From contig CALVBC010000011.1 in the NCBI GenBank assembly GCA_944325685.1, positions 1 through 33,717 on the forward strand: a stretch of DNA of 33,717 nucleotides, written 5' to 3'. Below are positions 1 through 33,329 of the stretch, in pieces. The position numbers and the translations under genes were made by a program. The stretch is from an uncultured Erysipelotrichaceae bacterium. Lineage in GTDB: Bacteria > Bacillota_I > Bacilli_A > Erysipelotrichales > Erysipelotrichaceae. The stretch's first letter is position 1; every line of letters starts with the position of its first letter. The notes under the pieces were generated by a model that was given only the letters and a program-made list of their open reading frames with translations, was not told the origin of the DNA and searched no databases.

Positions 1-1104
1 CTTATTCCGCTTTACATGTCATATCTGACTTCGCTCAGCGATCAAAAGAAGCGTTTTGACATCAAGATCATCGTGGCGACCTTTTGTTTCGTGTTTGGGA
101 TCGCTACGGTCTATTTCCTGTTGGGACTGGCAACAAGTGAGATCCGAAGTCTTTTAAATGATTATCAAAATATCATCACGTTAGTCGGCGGGATCTTACT
201 TTTATTCATCGCTTTAGTCCAACTTGGTGTGATCGAGATCAAAGCATTGAATCGAGAATACTCTTTTAAAGAGCGTCTGGATGTAACTAAGATGAGTTAC
301 CTCAAGGCCTATTTGCTCGGCTTGGCTTTCTCTTTTGCTTGGACACCGTGTATCGGGCCGATGATGGCCGGTGTCCTTATAATGGCAGCGGGAAGCGAGG
401 CGCTTTTTGGCAATCTTTTGATCCTGGTCTATACAATAGGTTTCACGATCCCGTTTTTGATCATCGCCCTCTTTTATAAAAAAGTGCTGGATTTTATTAA
501 AGCTAAAAGGGAGATACTCATCAAGATCTCTAAAGCGGCAGCGATCATCATCCTGGCCTTTGGGATCTATATGGTCTATAACGGCACCAAAAACATCGTC
601 GCTATCGAAGCCCAATACCGCGATCTTCTAGCTGCCTCTTCTACAACTGATGAAAAGAGCGATAAGTTTATGATGTATGATTTTGACTTAGTTGACCAAT
701 ACGGCACAAGACATACACTCAATGATTATAAAGGCCGCTACATTGCCCTTAACTTCATCGCTTCCTGGTGCAATTATTGTATCGGCGAGATCGATGATTA
801 CAAAGCCTTTGCCACCTCGCTTGACGATGATGAAGCCGTGGCTTTATACGTCATGGCTGATGTGATAAATGCGCAAAACAGCTCACTTACAACGGAAGAA
901 TTCATTGTTGAACATAGTGTTGAAGTGCCCGTCTTAAACGACGATGGGACGATGTTTACCTATCTTGGGATAAACTCTTTCCCAACCGTTGTCTATATCG
1001 GTCCGGATGGTTCATATATCGGCTATCGAAGCGGTGCTCTGGATACTGATAGTATGATGGAGATCTTTAAACTCGCAAAAGAGCGCTACGAAAAAGGTGA
1101 ATAG
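1..1104 (+). CDS. CcdA-type thiol transporter fused to a thioredoxin-like domain (5' partial)
   Basis: Polytopic membrane protein that would carry reducing power across the membrane, fused to an extracytoplasmic TlpA/ResA-like thioredoxin domain. The frame is open from base 1 and the first visible residues, LIPLYMSYLTS, match the CcdA sequence that follows the first redox cysteine. The true start and that cysteine therefore lie left of the window, and the ATG at 16 is internal. Numbering from that Met: hydrophobic segments near 16-40, 54-75, 96-125, 133-153 and 170-188; the second CcdA cysteine in FAWTPCIGP (Cys112); then a soluble domain from about 215 with the active site WCNYC (Cys252, Cys255) and the cis-Pro region SFPTVVYIG. 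The hydrolase gene begins 2 bp after the stop, so the two are probably co-transcribed. Family assignment is firm; the substrate is unknown. Confidence 0.9.
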   Translation, partial: LIPLYMSYLTSLSDQKKRFDIKIIVATFCFVFGIATVYFLLGLATSEIRSLLNDYQNIITLVGGILLLFIALVQLGVIEIKALNREYSFKERLDVTKMSYLKAYLLGLAFSFAWTPCIGPMMAGVLIMAAGSEALFGNLLILVYTIGFTIPFLIIALFYKKVLDFIKAKREILIKISKAAAIIILAFGIYMVYNGTKNIVAIEAQYRDLLAASSTTDEKSDKFMMYDFDLVDQYGTRHTLNDYKGRYIALNFIASWCNYCIGEIDDYKAFATSLDDDEAVALYVMADVINAQNSSLTTEEFIVEHSVEVPVLNDDGTMFTYLGINSFPTVVYIGPDGSYIGYRSGALDTDSMMEIFKLAKERYEKGE

Positions 1105-7814: not shown

Positions 7815-9077
7815 TCAGTTATCTAAAAGTTTATCTATACGCATTGCGAATTTAAAGTAGTTTTGATAGTGCTTTGTTTTTGTGGTCAGCTCTAATAGTT
7901 CTTTATTGATCATATCGATATATATCTTTGATTGGATCAATTCGATATGAAAGTTGTTTACTAGGTATTTTTCAAGTGTTGATGGATCTTCTTCGTTATA
8001 TTTCATAGTGTAATATTCAATGATATATCTAACGGAAGGCCTTTTTATTTTTTCGATCTTGCATTTATTGAGAATGGATCTTAATTCATCATATTTGTCT
8101 TCTTTTTCGCCGGCTATACACATAAAAATGACATTGAGGAACAAGTAATTAGGATCTTTTTCGAAGGTATCTTTTAAGTTTGCATAGCTGTTCTCGTAGT
8201 CATCTATGTAAAAATATACTAGACCAAGACGCATTTTAGCATATGCAAGTTCATGGTCTGGTAAGAGCTTTTCGATATTATATATAGTCAGCGATGAACT
8301 TAGAAGTTCGCAAGTTTCTTTATACATGTGAAGATTGAAATATGCCTGTGCTAAGCAAGAATGTCTAGCATATTCTGATAGTTTAGGACTGTCATCGAAA
8401 TAACAATTAGATCGATCTTCAAAGTATTTTGCCATCTCATATGGCTCTAGTAAGTAGCAATAATAGCTTGATTGGTCTAGTAAGAATAGGCTATGTTTTG
8501 ATAGTTCCTTGCCTAAGATGAAAAAATCGATATCTTTAGCTTTTTTGACAAGTCTTCTGCCGACACTATATAGATAGTACTCTGCGAGTATCTTATCGTA
8601 GTAATGTAACTTTTGAAAAAGCTTACCAAATAGATCATACATATCTCGATCATTTGTAATAGACTTGGTGACATAATCGCATACGACGATGTACAAAGAA
8701 AGAAGATCGCCGATATAGGCATAATCATCATATTCCTCTTTTAATTGTTTGATCTTTTTGATCATGATGTTTGTATTAGCTATCCTATTATCTGAGCAGA
8801 GTGTGTTATATAATTCTTCTCCGATACTTTCTACTTTTTCATATGGTCGCTTATCTATAGTGGTCTTCTTAGGATAAGCCATATTGATCAAGTCGAGATT
8901 GTTGTTGATAGCGGCGATATCACCATCTTCGATCCTCACCAATGTCGAATAGCTTATCTTGATGCCTCTATCACTCAGATATTTAACAAATTCTTTTCTT
9001 GATCGGCATATCTTCTTTCTGCGCTGTGCTAAAAATGCTCCGAGCAACATATAATCTAAGTAGTATTTCTTTGCCAT
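7815..9077 (-). CDS. HTH regulator with long TPR-like helical domain (RNPP/Rgg-like)
   Basis: Predicted cytoplasmic DNA-binding regulator of 420 aa. Residues about 10-55 form an XRE-type helix-turn-helix (LGAFLAQRRKKI, then RSRKEFVKYLSD, then YSTLVRIEDGD). From about 85 to the end the protein is all-helical and rich in Tyr and Leu, with TPR-like pairs such as ARHSCLAQAYFNLHMYKE and AKMRLGLVYFYIDDYENSY. An N-terminal HTH plus C-terminal TPR fold is the architecture of Rgg/PlcR/PrgX regulators that bind short peptides, although those are usually about 280-320 aa. The gene faces a 69-aa secreted-peptide gene 144 bp away, the usual geometry of such circuits. The fold is seen; the peptide-binding role is inference. 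There is no SD; see the promoter entry. Confidence 0.75.
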   Translation of the reverse strand: MAKKYYLDYMLLGAFLAQRRKKICRSRKEFVKYLSDRGIKISYSTLVRIEDGDIAAINNNLDLINMAYPKKTTIDKRPYEKVESIGEELYNTLCSDNRIANTNIMIKKIKQLKEEYDDYAYIGDLLSLYIVVCDYVTKSITNDRDMYDLFGKLFQKLHYYDKILAEYYLYSVGRRLVKKAKDIDFFILGKELSKHSLFLLDQSSYYCYLLEPYEMAKYFEDRSNCYFDDSPKLSEYARHSCLAQAYFNLHMYKETCELLSSSLTIYNIEKLLPDHELAYAKMRLGLVYFYIDDYENSYANLKDTFEKDPNYLFLNVIFMCIAGEKEDKYDELRSILNKCKIEKIKRPSVRYIIEYYTMKYNEEDPSTLEKYLVNNFHIELIQSKIYIDMINKELLELTTKTKHYQNYFKFAMRIDKLLDN

Positions 9078-9083
9078 ATAGAA

Positions 9084-9112
9084 ATAATACTATGCCTATA
9101 GATCAATAACAA
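9084..9112 (-). promoter_or_regulatory. promoter of the HTH/TPR regulator, leaderless geometry
   Basis: On the minus strand, TTGTTA (9107-9112), 17 bases, TATTAT (9084-9089), then six bases and the ATG at 9077. Transcription would begin at or within a base or two of the start codon, and no SD is present. Confidence 0.6.
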
Positions 9113-9127
9113 CAAAACCACATAGAT

Positions 9128-9215
9128 GTAATTTGAGAAAAATTATCAAGCACCATAGAATATCCTGCATCGAAGTAAAAATTACCTACGCTTCAATAGC
9201 ACGATTATGTACAAT
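9128..9215 (+). promoter_or_regulatory. control region of the peptide operon
   Basis: TACAAT (9210-9215) ends 6 bases before the ATG at 9222, but no recognisable -35 lies 16-18 bases upstream, as expected for an activator-dependent promoter. Seven-bp arms GTAATTT and AAATTAC (9128-9134/9179-9185) lie upstream, 51 bp apart start to start. They are candidate sites for the divergent regulator. Weak evidence. Confidence 0.3.
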
Positions 9216-9221
9216 CAAATT

Positions 9222-9431
9222 ATGAAAAAGTTATATATTTCACTTATTGTGCTATTTATTATCTTTTCAGTTACGAATATAAGAACAGAACAAGACAGTG
9301 TTGAAATACGATGCTGGATCGAGATGCTCGACGATGGTAGTTTGGAAGAAGTGTGTGTGGAAACACAAGACGAAGTTATGCCGCCAAGAAGAGTTGGCGC
9401 TAAAGATTGCACCAATTGTTGGTTGCCATGA
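9222..9431 (+). CDS. small secreted cysteine-containing peptide (candidate signal or protease substrate)
   Basis: A 69-aa product that I do not recognise as a known family. MKK plus a hydrophobic core (4-18) make a signal peptide or anchor, and a clear cleavage site is not obvious. The rest, from about residue 23, is acidic with four cysteines (31, 45, 63, 66), a PPRR turn at 54-57 and the tail DCTNCWLP. Start: ATG 9222 gives the classical MKK n-region, while ATG 9207 would add five residues; neither has an SD. It lies opposite a peptide-regulator-like gene and 77 bp before a secreted cysteine peptidase, with no terminator between. A pheromone precursor is the leading idea; a bacteriocin-like peptide or a protease partner is possible. 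Confidence 0.6.
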   Translation: MKKLYISLIVLFIIFSVTNIRTEQDSVEIRCWIEMLDDGSLEEVCVETQDEVMPPRRVGAKDCTNCWLP

Positions 9432-9508
9432 TAAAAGGCAGAGTATTTTGTAACTTAAAACACAAGATGAGGGATAGACTATTTGCGGTATTAAGAGAAG
9501 GAGGAAAA

Positions 9509-10636
9509 ATGATCATGAAAAGAACAATATCGCTACTACTAACTATTACGTTGATATTTTCCGGTTTTACTACGGTAAAGGCGGAAATAAATTCCATTAA
9601 ATATCTAAGTGACGAGGTTGCTAGGAGTCACATAGAGCTTGTGAATGAGGACTTTAATATCCAATCTGTAACACCATTATATGACGGAACTGGTGAGATC
9701 AATGGATATTGGTACCACCTAAAAAATGGCACTAACTCAGGTTATATGATTGTTTTTAATTGGGGTGGTGAATTAAAGGTGACAGAATATTCATTTGAAA
9801 GAGATTTGGATTTAGATACCTCTAGAAGGATATATTATAATGGTTTGATTTCATATTTCTATGGCGATCAAGATACAGCGATATTAACTGATTCGAAAGA
9901 GGATGTTTCTTTACTGGTATCCAGTTTATACAGAGCTCCAGATTTAAATATCTCTAAAACATACTCTTCTATACAAAAGAACAGCATTATTGAGCCGAAA
10001 GCTTATACAACAAAAGTTTCTCATATATATGGAGTTCCGAAAATCAATCAAAATGCTGTAAATTCATCTGAAAGATCAAAACTCTGTACTCAAACTGCTA
10101 CCGCGATGCTAATACAGTTTTATGATGAAAATAAAAGCGGCTATAGCGCAATTGCAACTTCATCTGGGACTAGCTTAGTTCTTGATGTTAGAAAAGATAT
10201 GCAAATTGGAACGAATGGAACTACACTTCAACAGTTTAGAAGTGGCTTAACCAATTACCTTAGTTCTAGAGGGTTTGGAGTATCTATAACCACAAAAGAT
10301 GCCGCTAATGGTGGTTATACGAATTTGTCAGATAACGATTTTAATTTACTTTATAACGATATGGTCAACTACAAGCCAGCAATCGTTGTCATCGGTAGCG
10401 CAGCAAAAACGGGAAGTGGTCAAGATTTTCCATGCATGGATGGTGTAGATCATAATTTCTTGCATGCAATGACTGTCATAGGAACATATAAAGATTCTCA
10501 AACAGGCGACATGTATTTAGAAGTAATTGATCCTGATGGGGGCGTTGAAAGAACCTTATTCTGGGATATTGAAATTACACCTGGGATAGAACCTTCTGCG
10601 ATTTGGGCGTTATCTCGTGTTACAATAACCAAATGA
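9509..10636 (+). CDS. secreted C39-like cysteine peptidase with propeptide-like N-domain
   Basis: A 375-aa exported protein. The start at 9509 has AGAAGGAGG (9495-9503) 5 bases ahead and gives MIMKRT; the open frame extends to 9407 but without SD. The signal peptide spans 1-25, with probable cleavage after VKA. Residues 30-125 (GYWYHLKNG, GYMIVFNWGGE) resemble the propeptide or inhibitor folds of streptopain-like enzymes. From about 172 comes a papain-fold C39-type domain: PKINQ (Gln181), LCTQTATAML with catalytic Cys193, FLHAMTVIGTY with His319, and VIDPDGG with Asp341. Unlike the C39 domains of bacteriocin ABC exporters it is not fused to a transporter. Ile codons are mostly ATT/ATA and GATC is rare, unlike most neighbours. 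Its natural substrate may be the upstream peptide. Confidence 0.78.
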   Translation: MIMKRTISLLLTITLIFSGFTTVKAEINSIKYLSDEVARSHIELVNEDFNIQSVTPLYDGTGEINGYWYHLKNGTNSGYMIVFNWGGELKVTEYSFERDLDLDTSRRIYYNGLISYFYGDQDTAILTDSKEDVSLLVSSLYRAPDLNISKTYSSIQKNSIIEPKAYTTKVSHIYGVPKINQNAVNSSERSKLCTQTATAMLIQFYDENKSGYSAIATSSGTSLVLDVRKDMQIGTNGTTLQQFRSGLTNYLSSRGFGVSITTKDAANGGYTNLSDNDFNLLYNDMVNYKPAIVVIGSAAKTGSGQDFPCMDGVDHNFLHAMTVIGTYKDSQTGDMYLEVIDPDGGVERTLFWDIEITPGIEPSAIWALSRVTITK

Positions 10637-11349
10637 TGAAACACATAACGTTATTACTTATCATCTTGATCATCCTCACATCATGCGCCACTCAAGATGA
10701 AGAAATAGTAAATACACCTGTATCAACACCACCATCGTCTTCTGGGATCCATGAAGAAGATAAGGTCAAGGATATCTGTGGTGATTGCTTATTCACTTAT
10801 AGGCTTGAAGATTACGATATCAACAATATTGAAGATGAGGCTTTTCTGATCGAGTATTGGCTCATCTCATCAAGACAATTTAGTGATGACTTTTATCTTA
10901 AAGATTATGATGATACTTGGATAAAAGAACTCGACGATTCATTAGACCAAGAGTCTTATATGTACGATATAAACGATGAAGGGATCGATATCAAGATCGA
11001 TGATATCTTAAATGGTCTTGGTGATGAAACGATCTTATATAACGATCTTATCCAAATTTCATGTGAAGGAAAGCCATTATATGAAAGCGATACATGGAAT
11101 AACCATATCGGCATCCGCTATAAAAAATCCTATTTAAAGGATGTCTTAGGGGGTGATATCAAGATGGGCAAGGTCGTTAGTGAACCTATGTATTCTTTGA
11201 TCTATAAGGCTTTTATCGATCATACAAGAGATGATATCTATATCCGTATTGATGCATATAGTGATAAATCAGTGATCGTTATTGAATACGAAAGGACGGA
11301 TCATCCTATCTATCATATATCCTACATAAGCGATGTAGTGATAGAGTAG
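10633..11349 (+). CDS. lipoprotein of unknown function, partner of the peptidase
   Basis: A 238-aa predicted lipoprotein. The ATG at 10633 overlaps the peptidase stop (ATGA), implying translational coupling; the ATG at 10636 is an equal alternative, and the in-frame start at 10603 lies inside the peptidase gene. Residues 5-15 are hydrophobic and end in the lipobox LTSC (Cys18). A Pro/Ser-rich linker (28-38) leads to a CGDC pair (Cys49, Cys52) and then an acidic, Asp/Tyr-rich globular part without any family I know. It should sit on the outer face of the membrane, where it could bind or tether the peptidase or peptide. That role is inference from linkage only. Confidence 0.72.
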   Translation: MMKHITLLLIILIILTSCATQDEEIVNTPVSTPPSSSGIHEEDKVKDICGDCLFTYRLEDYDINNIEDEAFLIEYWLISSRQFSDDFYLKDYDDTWIKELDDSLDQESYMYDINDEGIDIKIDDILNGLGDETILYNDLIQISCEGKPLYESDTWNNHIGIRYKKSYLKDVLGGDIKMGKVVSEPMYSLIYKAFIDHTRDDIYIRIDAYSDKSVIVIEYERTDHPIYHISYISDVVIE

Positions 11350-11411
11350 TGTGTATATGAATCGTTTGAAAGGATCGGGAGTGGGTCACGCTGTTTTAAA
11401 TTAGGATTTAT

Positions 11412-11997
11412 ATGAAGAATAACAGATCTTGGATCTTTAATACATTTGTCATACTGTTTGTTTTGGTCGTCGTTTTTTTTGGCTGTCGATTCGGTCGTTG
11501 TTTTGAAAGTGCGGTTGACATCTGAACAGTGGCAAGATGTAAATAAGAGACTACAGATCGATCTAGATGAATATTACCTCGTTTCAGTTCATCAAAGAGG
11601 CTTGTTATTTTTCAAAAGTGGATTAGAATTTCGGTATTTTGGTAACGATCTAAGTACTGTTAGTGTGATAGAAATAACCGAAGGAAATAAAGATGTATCT
11701 TATATGATAGTCCCAAGGGAAAATGTCTATAAAACAGAACATTTGAAATATAGAGGACTAGATATCAAAATGGAAGTTTTTACGGATTCTTCTAGTACTC
11801 AATTCGGATATGAAGATATGTATGTGCCTGTAGGGATCGATGTGAATTTTGAATACTTAGGGACAGATGTTAGGATGTCTTTAGGGGCAGTCAACAGTTT
11901 TTGGTGCGAACCAAGAGAGTTTGATGTCGGGGTCACGGATACAGAGATCGCTAATCTAAAGACCTTTATCGATGAGCATCTGTTCTTAGAACAATGA
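11412..11997 (+). pseudogene. membrane-anchored protein of unknown function, frameshifted at a T8 tract
   Basis: The ATG at 11412 has AGGA 5 bases ahead and encodes MKNNRSWIFNTFVILFVLVV, a clear signal anchor. In the given sequence that frame passes the T8 run at 11473-11480, reads FFGCRFGRC and stops at 11522-11524. The remaining open frame to 11997 is one phase off and has only a TTG (11446) without SD. Deleting one T joins them into a 194-aa protein with anchor, LAVDSVVVLKV, then a soluble domain (LTSEQWQDVNKRL onward) ending HLFLEQ. I do not recognise the domain. It could be a mutation, a slipped-strand switch or a sequencing error. It closes the peptide operon: 62 bp after the lipoprotein, with a terminator following. 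Confidence 0.65.
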
Positions 11998-12098
11998 TCT
12001 ATCACCATATAAGGTACCATATGCGTTAACAAAGACTATTAAAGTATGCCTTAAATTAGAATTCACTGGCGAAAGCAAAAGAAAGCTCAAATAACATT

Positions 12099-12140
12099 AA
12101 AAAGAGGATCAGCCCACCTTAAAAACTGACACCTCTTTTT
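12099..12140 (+). terminator. terminator of the peptide/peptidase operon
   Basis: Outer arms AAAAAGAGG/CCTCTTTTT (12099-12107/12132-12140) and inner TCAG/CTGA (12109-12112/12126-12129) form an interrupted hairpin ending in a T-run. The A-run on the other side makes it potentially bidirectional. Confidence 0.7.
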
Positions 12141-12353: not shown

Positions 12354-13727
12354 ATGGATGAGATGCATAAAAGACAGAAGATAATAGCGCAATTAGTCGA
12401 GGCGCGTCTTGAAAAAGGCATTTCGCAAGCTGAACTAGCTAGACGTTTGGGGGTCAAGCGTTCAGGAATCAATCGTTTAGAAAGCGGCTTACAGAATCCT
12501 ACTCTTGATATGATCTTGAAGATAGCCGCTGCTTTAGGCAAGGATATATCATTGGAACTTAATGATATAAAAGGACCTGAAACTAACACCTACAGTCTTC
12601 GCCTTTATGATACTGAATTGATGCGTTTTTCTTTAGAAAACAAAGGATTATCAGGTCTAGTAGCTGATATATCATATATCGATGAAGAAAAGAGATATTT
12701 GCTGCCACTTGATCTTGAGTGTACCAACGAAGGCGTGATCTCTTGGCTAAGACGACGTGTCATCCCTAAGAATCGGGCTTTTGTGGATGAGATCTTGAAG
12801 ACATTTGGCCTTAGCCATAATGATACCAAAGGGATCATCGATGTATGCAAAGGGTTATCGCTCAACGACAGCTATTGGGTAGTGCCTGAAGGTTTTAAGG
12901 GGCAATTTGCTAAGTTCAACCTTTATGAAAATCGCTTTTCGGAAAGGCTGGCATTAGTAGCTTATACAGGTGCTGGTGCTAGTAGGCAAGCCTTTTCTAT
13001 TTCCCCAGAGCTAACGACTGGTGGTATGTTGCCAAAAGCTTGGCACTATATCAAGGACGATGGGATATATCTATATAAAGGTGGTACATCTGGTACAGCA
13101 AATGCAGGTCGTGAACCGTATTGTGAATACTATGCTTCTGAGATCGCTGAGACCATGCGCCTTAATGCCGTTCACTATGACCTAGAAAATTACAAAGGTA
13201 TAGTCGCTTCAAAATGCCCTTTATTTACCGATATCGATACATCTTACATCCCTATTGGTCATATCGTAAAAACAGGTGGTATCGCTGCTTGCCTTGCTTA
13301 CTATGATGAATTAGGTCCGGTATTTGCTGATGCGATCCGCAGCATGCTTGTGTTTGATGCCTTGATCTATAATGAGGATCGTCACTTTGGCAATTTTGGT
13401 GTCCTTAGAGATAATCATAGCGGTGACATCATCGCGCCTGCCCCTATTTTCGATAATGGTCTGTCATTGTTTTGCTATGCAGGGGAAGAAGAATATAAAG
13501 ATCTTGACGCATATGCTAAGACGCGTACTAATCCTTATGGTGTTTCATTCGAAGAAATATGTGCTGAAGTTATGGGGCCAAAACAGAAGGAACAACTAAG
13601 GCACATGATCGGTTTTAAATTCAAACGTCATGGCAGTTTAGATCTTCCTGATGAGCATTTGGAAGCCGTTGAGAAACATTTAGAAGTCAGAGTACGTAAA
13701 CTTTTGGCAATACCAAATCATCGCTAA
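12354..13727 (+). CDS. single-chain XRE-HTH / HipA-like kinase
   Basis: A 457-aa fusion. Residues about 10-70 are a HipB-like helix-turn-helix (ISQAELARRLGV, then GINRLESGLQNPTLDMI). After a linker domain comes a HipA-type Ser/Thr kinase core: YLYKGGTSG with a likely ATP-contacting Lys242, the catalytic loop NEDRHFGNFG (Asp342, Asn347) and the metal-binding IFDNG (Asp367). HipA kinases phosphorylate translation targets such as tRNA synthetases and are normally restrained by a separate HipB; here antitoxin-like and toxin-like parts share one chain. All key residues appear intact. GAGGTGAG lies 3 bases before the ATG; the ATG at 12363 is a possible alternative. No separate antitoxin gene is adjacent. 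Activity as toxin is unproven; a phosphorylation-controlled repressor is equally possible. Confidence 0.82.
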   Translation: MDEMHKRQKIIAQLVEARLEKGISQAELARRLGVKRSGINRLESGLQNPTLDMILKIAAALGKDISLELNDIKGPETNTYSLRLYDTELMRFSLENKGLSGLVADISYIDEEKRYLLPLDLECTNEGVISWLRRRVIPKNRAFVDEILKTFGLSHNDTKGIIDVCKGLSLNDSYWVVPEGFKGQFAKFNLYENRFSERLALVAYTGAGASRQAFSISPELTTGGMLPKAWHYIKDDGIYLYKGGTSGTANAGREPYCEYYASEIAETMRLNAVHYDLENYKGIVASKCPLFTDIDTSYIPIGHIVKTGGIAACLAYYDELGPVFADAIRSMLVFDALIYNEDRHFGNFGVLRDNHSGDIIAPAPIFDNGLSLFCYAGEEEYKDLDAYAKTRTNPYGVSFEEICAEVMGPKQKEQLRHMIGFKFKRHGSLDLPDEHLEAVEKHLEVRVRKLLAIPNHR

Positions 13728-32100: not shown

Positions 32101-32931
32101 TTAATCATCGTTTTCATCATCTTTCTTCGATAAGTATTCATCCATTACCTCTTTAGGAGTTTTATAACCTAAAGCGTAGGCAGGTCTTTCGTTATTGAAG
32201 AAATCGACGTATTCTCTGATACTTTCTTCGACGTTATCGGAATCATTTATCTTAAAATCAAGATATAGCTCGTCTTTGACCCAACCATTTATGGATTCCA
32301 TAGCCCCATTATCAGTTGGTGTTCCTGCACGAGACATACTTCTTGTGATATTACGTAAAAGAAGATTTTTATTAAAGTCTTTAGAAGCATATACAGACCC
32401 TTGATCAGTGTGTAAGATAAGGTCATAGTCTGGGTATGCTTCTTCTTTTATTTTGATCACTTCATCTCTGCCGTTGATATATGTATTGCGATCACCTTTT
32501 GTATCAGATACAGCCCAAGCTATGATCGCATTATTGAACAGATCCATATAGAAGGTTATCTCATAAGGCTTGCCTTTTATTTTGATCATCGTCATATCTG
32601 ATACGATCACTTGGAATGGCCTTGTGATGACGATATCAGCTAGTACCATATTAGGATAGATACATTCTCTTCCGGCTGCTTTATAGCCCCTAAAGCGCTT
32701 AGAAGCGCTTTTGATGCCACAATAATGGCAGACCCTTTGGGCATAGGTATCAGAGAATACGAGCCCTGTATCATGCCTGATCTTGGAATTTAACCACCTA
32801 TAGCCATGTGAAGGATATTTATCGTGATATTCTTTGAACAGCTTGATATTAGATTCTCTTTCGATTATCTTATCAGTCGGCTTTCTTTGTCGATCACGCC
32901 ATTTATAGAAACTGCTTCTATTGATGTCCAT
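32101..32931 (-). CDS. IS3-family transposase OrfB (DDE integrase part)
   Basis: Catalytic part of the transposase, 276 aa from the ATG at 32931. The HTH_21-like start (INRSSFYKWRDR, SHGYRWLNSKI) is followed by an rve integrase core: first Asp in IVSDMTMIKIKG, second Asp in LILHTDQGSVYAS, and the Glu in DNGAMESINGWVKDE, then the typical FFNNERPAYALGYKTP. The frame stays open another 24 codons upstream to the slippery heptamer at 32997-33003, so the natural product is mostly the OrfA-OrfB fusion made by frameshifting, with the internal ATG giving OrfB alone at most. The stop codon abuts the candidate terminal repeat. Confidence 0.92.
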   Translation of the reverse strand: MDINRSSFYKWRDRQRKPTDKIIERESNIKLFKEYHDKYPSHGYRWLNSKIRHDTGLVFSDTYAQRVCHYCGIKSASKRFRGYKAAGRECIYPNMVLADIVITRPFQVIVSDMTMIKIKGKPYEITFYMDLFNNAIIAWAVSDTKGDRNTYINGRDEVIKIKEEAYPDYDLILHTDQGSVYASKDFNKNLLLRNITRSMSRAGTPTDNGAMESINGWVKDELYLDFKINDSDNVEESIREYVDFFNNERPAYALGYKTPKEVMDEYLSKKDDENDD

Positions 32932-32978
32932 GACCCTACATAATCTTTTAACAGGGAATTCGCTAGATAGTTTGTATA

Positions 32979-33329
32979 TTATCTCGAATTCTGCTTCTTT
33001 AAAGTAATGAATTCCTTTTCCTGACCACCACCTTTCACCATGTAACCTTTTTTTAATCTTTCGACCTCGACTTTCGCTTTGATGATCTCATCGATAAGTT
33101 GGTCTTTAGATAGTTCTTTCAAAGTGTCGATATTGATTTCTTTTTCTATCTTAACCATCACCTGGTCTTTTTTCTTCGATTTAAGACCATTCTCTTTGAC
33201 ATAAGAAGTATAGTAGTATCGTGCCGTACTAGTAGGGATACCATATTTCTTACCAGCTTGAGCGAATGACAACCCATTTTCATGGATGTCCTTCGCTATG
33301 TCGCCTCTTAGCGTCTTATCTGTCGCCAT
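32979..33329 (-). CDS. IS3-family OrfA (DNA-binding part of transposase)
   Basis: A 116-aa protein with an N-terminal helix-turn-helix (RGDIAKDIHENGLSFAQAGKKYGI, then STARYYY), a basic linker and a Leu-rich coiled stretch (IDTLKELSKDQLIDEIIKAK) of the kind that mediates multimerisation. AAGGAGG lies about 6 bases before the ATG. It recognises the IS ends and, alone, usually represses transposition. The last codons overlap the upstream extension of orfB in the -1 frame. Confidence 0.88.
   Translation of the reverse strand: MATDKTLRGDIAKDIHENGLSFAQAGKKYGIPTSTARYYYTSYVKENGLKSKKKDQVMVKIEKEINIDTLKELSKDQLIDEIIKAKVEVERLKKGYMVKGGGQEKEFITLKKQNSR
32997..33003 (-). promoter_or_regulatory. programmed -1 ribosomal frameshift site of the IS
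   Basis: On the minus strand the orfA codons ACT TTA AAG contain the heptamer T-TTA-AAG (pattern X-XXY-YYZ). Slipping back one base gives TTT AAA GAA GCA GAA, which enters the open orfB frame; without slipping OrfA ends at the TAA at 32979-32981. Confidence 0.75.

Follow-up and report, generated by a model that had tools for sequence, protein, structure and literature searches.

The question raised by the locus described here is whether a small exported peptide with four cysteines is the signal of the regulator encoded next to it, and what the role of the secreted protease encoded behind the peptide might then be. The locus lies on a 33,717-nucleotide stretch of DNA from an uncultured Erysipelotrichaceae bacterium (GenBank assembly GCA_944325685.1, contig CALVBC010000011.1; the whole stretch, hereafter called the window, corresponds to contig C11 in a genome of 1.36 Mb); the regulator gene is divergent from the genes for the peptide, a papain-like peptidase, a lipoprotein and a fourth protein (Table 1). 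Sequence comparison and structural modelling suggest that the locus is probably a quorum-sensing pair of the RRNPP type, with the secreted-protease operon as its output; as in nprR-nprX-nprA and ropB-SIP-speB, the protease is more likely to be a product under regulation than the dedicated maturation enzyme of the signal.

Sequence searches with the regulator gave weak signals for TPR and helix-turn-helix (HTH) domains; a profile comparison with HipB-type HTH proteins reached an E value of 0.0057, and the Pfam family HTH_3 was matched weakly and by a single one of the eight members of the regulator alignment. The structure predicted from this eight-member alignment (pLDDT 88.6, pTM 0.83) bears out the HTH and TPR domains read from the sequence in the original prediction: residues 9–67 form the four short helices of the HTH region, and the ten top entries of the PDB are all RRNPP receptors (NprR and Rap proteins, Z 14.5–17.2). 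The model aligns with apo-NprR at a Z of 17.2 (332 residues, root-mean-square deviation 5.3), with peptide-bound RapF at 16.7, and with phage Raps and RapJ at 16.6, while the first unrelated TPR protein in the ranking, LGN, follows at 13.1; because helical repeats inflate Z, the rank order and the gap weigh more than the value itself. The regulator is thus predicted to have the HTH and peptide-receptor fold of the RRNPP class. It had been considered longer than classical members of this class, a view which does not hold, since the aligned NprR stretch reaches NprR residue 418 and 420 amino acids are therefore an ordinary NprR-like length. As a separate observation on the receptors, two of them (L017 and L018, on contigs C70 and C71 of genome G006) share the upstream region and the start of the HTH in their first ~220 bases; 127 bases are identical and the following ones nearly so, and the TPR parts are divergent, as though one DNA-binding end had been fitted with different sensors.

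Two independent searches, one with a receptor profile and one with a peptide profile of four members, covered 273 whole genomes of Erysipelotrichaceae, most of which are fragmented drafts. New matches of the peptide profile to small open reading frames (ORFs) coincided with receptor matches on G278 C22, G278 C25, G275 C12 and G291 C8 and, more weakly, on G292 C16; two more peptide matches (G294 C103 and G001 C58) lie near contig ends. A 12-member peptide profile run against 316 genomes added one further strong match, G006 C59, the contig end of which has 32 bases in common with the starts of both receptor-starting contigs, and this overlap again suggests a divergent pair. When four weak small-ORF matches were opened (L166–L169), all were found directly beside other regulators of the HTH/TPR type, as judged by their translations. 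Altogether, members of the peptide family neighbour related receptors in at least ten genera of the Erysipelotrichaceae, which, together with the NprR/Rap fold matches, upholds the layout of an RRNPP-type receptor and an exported peptide gene assumed at the outset. In a 392-genome sample of the phylum no strong peptide match was obtained outside the Erysipelotrichaceae, and no wider distribution is claimed because this sample matched the one family only.

The peptide of the window carries its cysteines at residues 31, 45, 63 and 66, and its relatives have a common architecture, that is, a signal peptide (called by a simple hydrophobicity rule), a middle part usually with two cysteines, and a tail. 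Near the C-terminus 16 of the 22 family members contain C-x(2-4)-C, often followed by tryptophan; the form C-x3-C is present in 14 of the 22, with 0.69 expected when each peptide's own residues are shuffled, and the residues within it are variable (TFD, TLD, SPE, TPD, PPS, EHE, PRS, IGI, WFN, MFN). Conservation of the 69-amino-acid frame was thereby checked, and as independent relatives keep it, the frame is more than a chance ORF. Two genomes carry two paralogous pairs each, G291 (Traorella massiliensis, loci L118 and L169) and G065, and the peptides cluster with the type of receptor rather than with the genome; in one instance the two peptides share the tail CSPECWG, and the remainder of the propeptide has diverged. 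Receptor and peptide distances correlate over 18 pairs (Mantel r 0.70, p 1e-4). The conserved tail, the grouping by receptor type and the correlation of distances fit a signal precursor.

Pairing was also assessed by a scan that counted, at a distance of up to 800 bp, any ORF of 45–110 amino acids that begins like a signal peptide and has a ribosome-binding site: such a small exported peptide is encoded near 20 of 26 receptor loci (one of them, L133, with a doubtful peptide) and near none of 52 control genes, all of them further long genes from these loci (Fisher p ~1e-13), a ratio that is not fully independent because several loci can be reached via the peptide search as well. Cleaner evidence comes from the agreement of the two whole-genome profile searches. 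The profile-independent scan also turned up peptides missed by every profile, in L016 (ending in GCIVDCY) and L130 (CSSPDCMFQ).

The incomplete independence of this ratio is one of several points that weigh against reading the locus as a quorum-sensing pair. The remaining six of the 26 loci have no peptide by the filter, so that some receptors stand without a recognisable partner; regarding regulator homologues lacking a peptide gene, the presumed association is therefore borne out for most of the loci and not for all. One of the six is the window itself, the peptide of which fails the filter solely for want of a clear ribosome-binding site (no clear Shine-Dalgarno sequence was found for its ATG at 9222), and another, L015, looks decayed. 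Conserved cysteines, four in the window peptide, are unexpected in a class whose known signals are short, linear and unmodified. Finally, thioredoxin-like exported proteins are encoded beside the peptide in L115 (6765–7319), L127 (4995–5468) and L134 (3712–4173), the one in L115 weakly matching the PedC/BrcD family of bacteriocin disulfide isomerases. Such genes would suit a different scenario, in which the peptide is itself the effector, a disulfide-bonded, bacteriocin-like molecule produced by the regulator's action upon another cue, and the protease, the lipoprotein and the fourth gene are co-regulated genes for competition or immunity. The conserved cysteine framework and the ABC-type genes close to some relatives are in line with it; on the other hand, the pairs in L119, L122, L166, L167 and L169 are devoid of recognisable transport or immunity genes, and a signal would better account for a tail that varies and for a peptide-receptor fold paired one to one with the peptide, which leaves a bacteriocin an unlikely explanation. 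For neighbours in L016 and L118 the label lactococcin-972-like is backed by neither Pfam nor NCBIfam, and it is not used as evidence.

If the peptide is a signal, the part played by the protease can be judged from what lies 3′ of the peptide gene elsewhere. A papain-like peptidase is found there in the window, in G027, in G279 and in a second cassette of the window's own genome (G000 C6, locus L024, 6801–10553, minus strand), in which HTH/TPR regulator, small exported ORF with cysteines, papain-like peptidase and lipoprotein are all codirectional. A shorter peptidase of the C39_2 type takes this position in G001 and G006, and a matrixin-like (M10) metalloprotease with a lipoprotein in G206 and, twice, in G278; the five loci named above as free of transport and immunity genes have no adjacent protease at all. 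The neighbouring output thus varies, from papain-like proteases and matrixin-like metalloproteases to exported proteins of other kinds or nothing at all, and it is because of this variation that the peptide is taken to track the receptor and not the protease, and because the receptor-peptide pair is constant that the protease is read as output. The original prediction had the signal encoded together with its own maturation protease as a self-contained cassette; peptide and protease are indeed adjacent and codirectional in the window, G000 C6, G027, G279, G001 C58 and G006 C59, but the protease changes class or is absent while the pair stays, and related papain-like peptidases with lipoproteins are encoded without a peptide in L022, L042, L044 and L045, which makes a dedicated maturation enzyme very improbable. 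Rated slightly lower still is a peptide that serves as specific inhibitor or pro-region partner of the protease in the manner of staphostatin or Spi. A small exported protein encoded immediately 5′ of a papain-like protease with staphopain and SpeB among its best folds would agree with such a role, whereas the occurrence of the same peptide family beside metalloproteases and beside receptors without any protease does not, nor does a variable C-terminal tail suit an inhibitor directed at a single fold. It is the varying protease class for which both the maturation and the inhibitor scenario are set low.

Two of these loci deserve a remark of their own. The G279 cassette ends in a gene for a 443-amino-acid exported protein (L043, 153–1481, minus strand) without a Pfam family, in which a caspase-like SGHG...DCC pattern was seen by eye; this is perhaps a second protease class. 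In the locus from G026 (L015, 4909–8066) a receptor is divergent from a metalloprotease of which the N-terminal part is missing and is accompanied by a lipoprotein and an anchored protein; there is no peptide gene, and the locus looks like a decayed cassette copy.

In the quorum-sensing scenario, the propeptide would leave the cell via Sec, general proteases would trim it extracellularly, and a short piece of its C-terminus including the cysteine motif, which in the window lies within KDCTNCWLP, would be re-imported by an Opp-type permease (the genome holds two genes for oligopeptide-binding proteins of the SBP_bac_5 family). Inside, the piece would bind the TPR groove of the regulator and switch the divergent promoter, presumably in such a way that both peptide and papain-like protease are raised, and the lipoprotein and the product of the fourth gene may be surface partners or serve self-protection. 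A more tentative extension, somewhat more likely to be wrong than right, is that the Erysipelotrichaceae have a distinct class of RRNPP pheromones, with a mature signal in the form of a C-x3-C(-W) loop that is closed by a disulfide and released from the C-terminus of a Cys-rich propeptide, that the residues in the loop set specificity, and that the receptor reads a cyclic or redox-dependent peptide. If so, sensing of cell density, and possibly of redox state, would be coupled to secreted proteases and other exported effectors, and receptor-peptide pairs with a two-cysteine tail would extend the RRNPP class to constrained or redox-sensitive signals. The pairs, including the two of the isolate genome Traorella massiliensis, are testable candidates for the control of secreted proteases and other exported proteins.

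How far such a system would be novel depends on which of its parts is considered. RRNPP peptides have been reviewed as shorter than ten residues and free of post-translational modification (PMC4873490), and they are called linear (PMC10518010). The original prediction knew of no described system of this composition; yet the same three functions are held by nprR-nprX with NprA, where NprR-NprX activates the NprA metalloprotease (PMC4873490), and by ropB-LCP-speB, where RopB with its peptide activates the adjacent secreted SpeB from a divergent layout (PMC10518010). The system of the Bacillus cereus group resembles the window in its HTH/TPR receptor, which is of the same length and the best structural match, in its small exported propeptide and in having a secreted protease among its outputs (PMC4873490); it is unlike it in that sequence identity is ~13% and that the window has a papain-like protease, a divergent layout, and a propeptide with four cysteines and a C-terminal cysteine motif. 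Streptococcal RopB-SIP-SpeB is closer in layout, the receptor being divergent from the peptide gene, behind which a secreted papain-fold cysteine protease is encoded (PMC10518010), but SIP is a leaderless peptide of 8 amino acids, whereas the conserved peptide adjacent to the window's receptor is a 69-amino-acid precursor with signal peptide and cysteines, and thus no match to the leaderless type. The nearest cysteine-bearing case is PlcRa-PapRa of Bacillus cereus, likewise an RRNPP receptor with an exported propeptide, the proposed signal of which, PapRa7 (CSIPYEY), contains one cysteine (PMC3519770) and no conserved pair, and for which no adjacent protease operon is described there. Staphopain/staphostatin operons share with the window a secreted protease, in the window of predicted papain fold, with N-terminal pro-region; they differ in that there is no match at the level of sequence, that the window's lipoprotein is of no known family, and that RRNPP-type control is predicted for the window. 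In the literature consulted, no RRNPP-class propeptide with a conserved pair of tail cysteines was found described, the main text of three large RRNPP surveys makes no mention of Erysipelotrichaceae, cysteine or disulfide, and no publication linking RRNPP systems to the Erysipelotrichaceae, a common gut family, was found. The combination of signal, receptor and secreted protease is therefore already known, and the conserved pair of tail cysteines is the unusual part, in agreement with the initial emphasis on cysteines in place of a plain linear tail.

The ORFs initially listed for regulator, peptide and peptidase are as described, and to the catalytic residues Cys193, His319 and Asp341 of the latter Gln181 can be added, which completes a papain-type tetrad that is invariant in seven relatives. 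The peptidase passes the threshold of Peptidase_C39_2 (PF13529) narrowly (24.7 bits, cut-off 24). Its structure model is moderate (pLDDT 64) and folds like prostaphopain B, the best Foldseek match (E 2.8e-6), and like staphopain, IdeS, C39 domains and SpeB; relatedness to streptopain (C10) or staphopain (C47) appears in these fold matches of a moderate model only, no sequence-level match having been obtained in Pfam or PDB sequence searches. The PDB sequence searches gave no significant relative of the peptidase, and a single-protein scan of named genomes found none.

The lipoprotein gene, for which coupling to the peptidase gene had been proposed, overlaps the peptidase stop by 4 bases. Neither the lipoprotein nor the fourth gene belongs to a Pfam or NCBIfam family; the lipoprotein does not resemble either of two lipoproteins from other cassettes, nor does the fourth gene resemble two anchored proteins in similar positions, for which reason a first impression that it shares its ending with the anchored protein of L015 was dropped. 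Of the proposed four-gene unit the first three genes stand, while the fourth is not one open frame but is split at a run of eight T; the frame from its ATG stops early, and the only start of the body is a TTG inside the anchor. The frameshift is a sequencing error, a slippage site or the mark of a broken gene. The unit had further been said to end in a terminator, and a hairpin with a T-rich stretch is present, although it is weak and not among the terminators of a pattern scan; a terminator at this position is plausible, if weak. Between the divergent genes the number of promoter-like sites equals that of shuffled sequences, the inverted repeats there are short, and an operator is not proposed. 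No RNA family was found in the window with Rfam.

Table 1. Features of the regulator-peptide-protease locus, with positions in the window
Feature	Position	Strand	Basis
Regulator, 420 aa, N-terminal HTH and TPR domain, predicted NprR/Rap receptor fold	7815..9077	-	Structure model, PDB fold matches
Intergenic region between the divergent regulator and peptide genes	9078..9221	.	One promoter-like site
Promoter-like site	9133-9161	+	Sigma-70-type, 10/12; number of sites in the region equal to that of shuffles
Exported Cys propeptide, 69 aa, predicted signal precursor	9222..9431	+	Translation, family profile matches beside receptors, alignment of relatives
C-T-N-C-W-L-P tail of propeptide, local form of C-x(2-4)-C; candidate part of mature signal	9408..9428	+	Motif alignment; signal role putative
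Secreted papain-like (C39_2-like) peptidase, 375 aa, signal peptide and N-terminal pro-domain-like region	9509..10636	+	PF13529 match, tetrad, fold
Lipoprotein, 238 aa, lipobox-like LTSC	10633..11349	+	Translation
Start and membrane anchor of fourth gene; frame from ATG 11412 stops early	11412..11525	+	Translation
Body of fourth gene, 183 aa, +1 frame relative to anchor	11446..11997	+	Translation
Run of eight T, meeting point of the two frames of the fourth gene	11473..11480	+	Sequence
Terminator-like hairpin 3′ of operon	12104..12135	+	-5.9 kcal/mol, z -2.1; T-rich stretch after

As judged by their translations, three further features of the window can be named. Directly 3′ of the cassette, at 12354–13727 (plus strand), a HipA-like protein fused to an N-terminal HTH is encoded; at 16–1104 (plus strand) a CcdA-like membrane part is fused to a thioredoxin-like domain of the TlpA type; and genes for transposases like those of insertion sequences (32101–33329, minus strand) lie close to the contig end.

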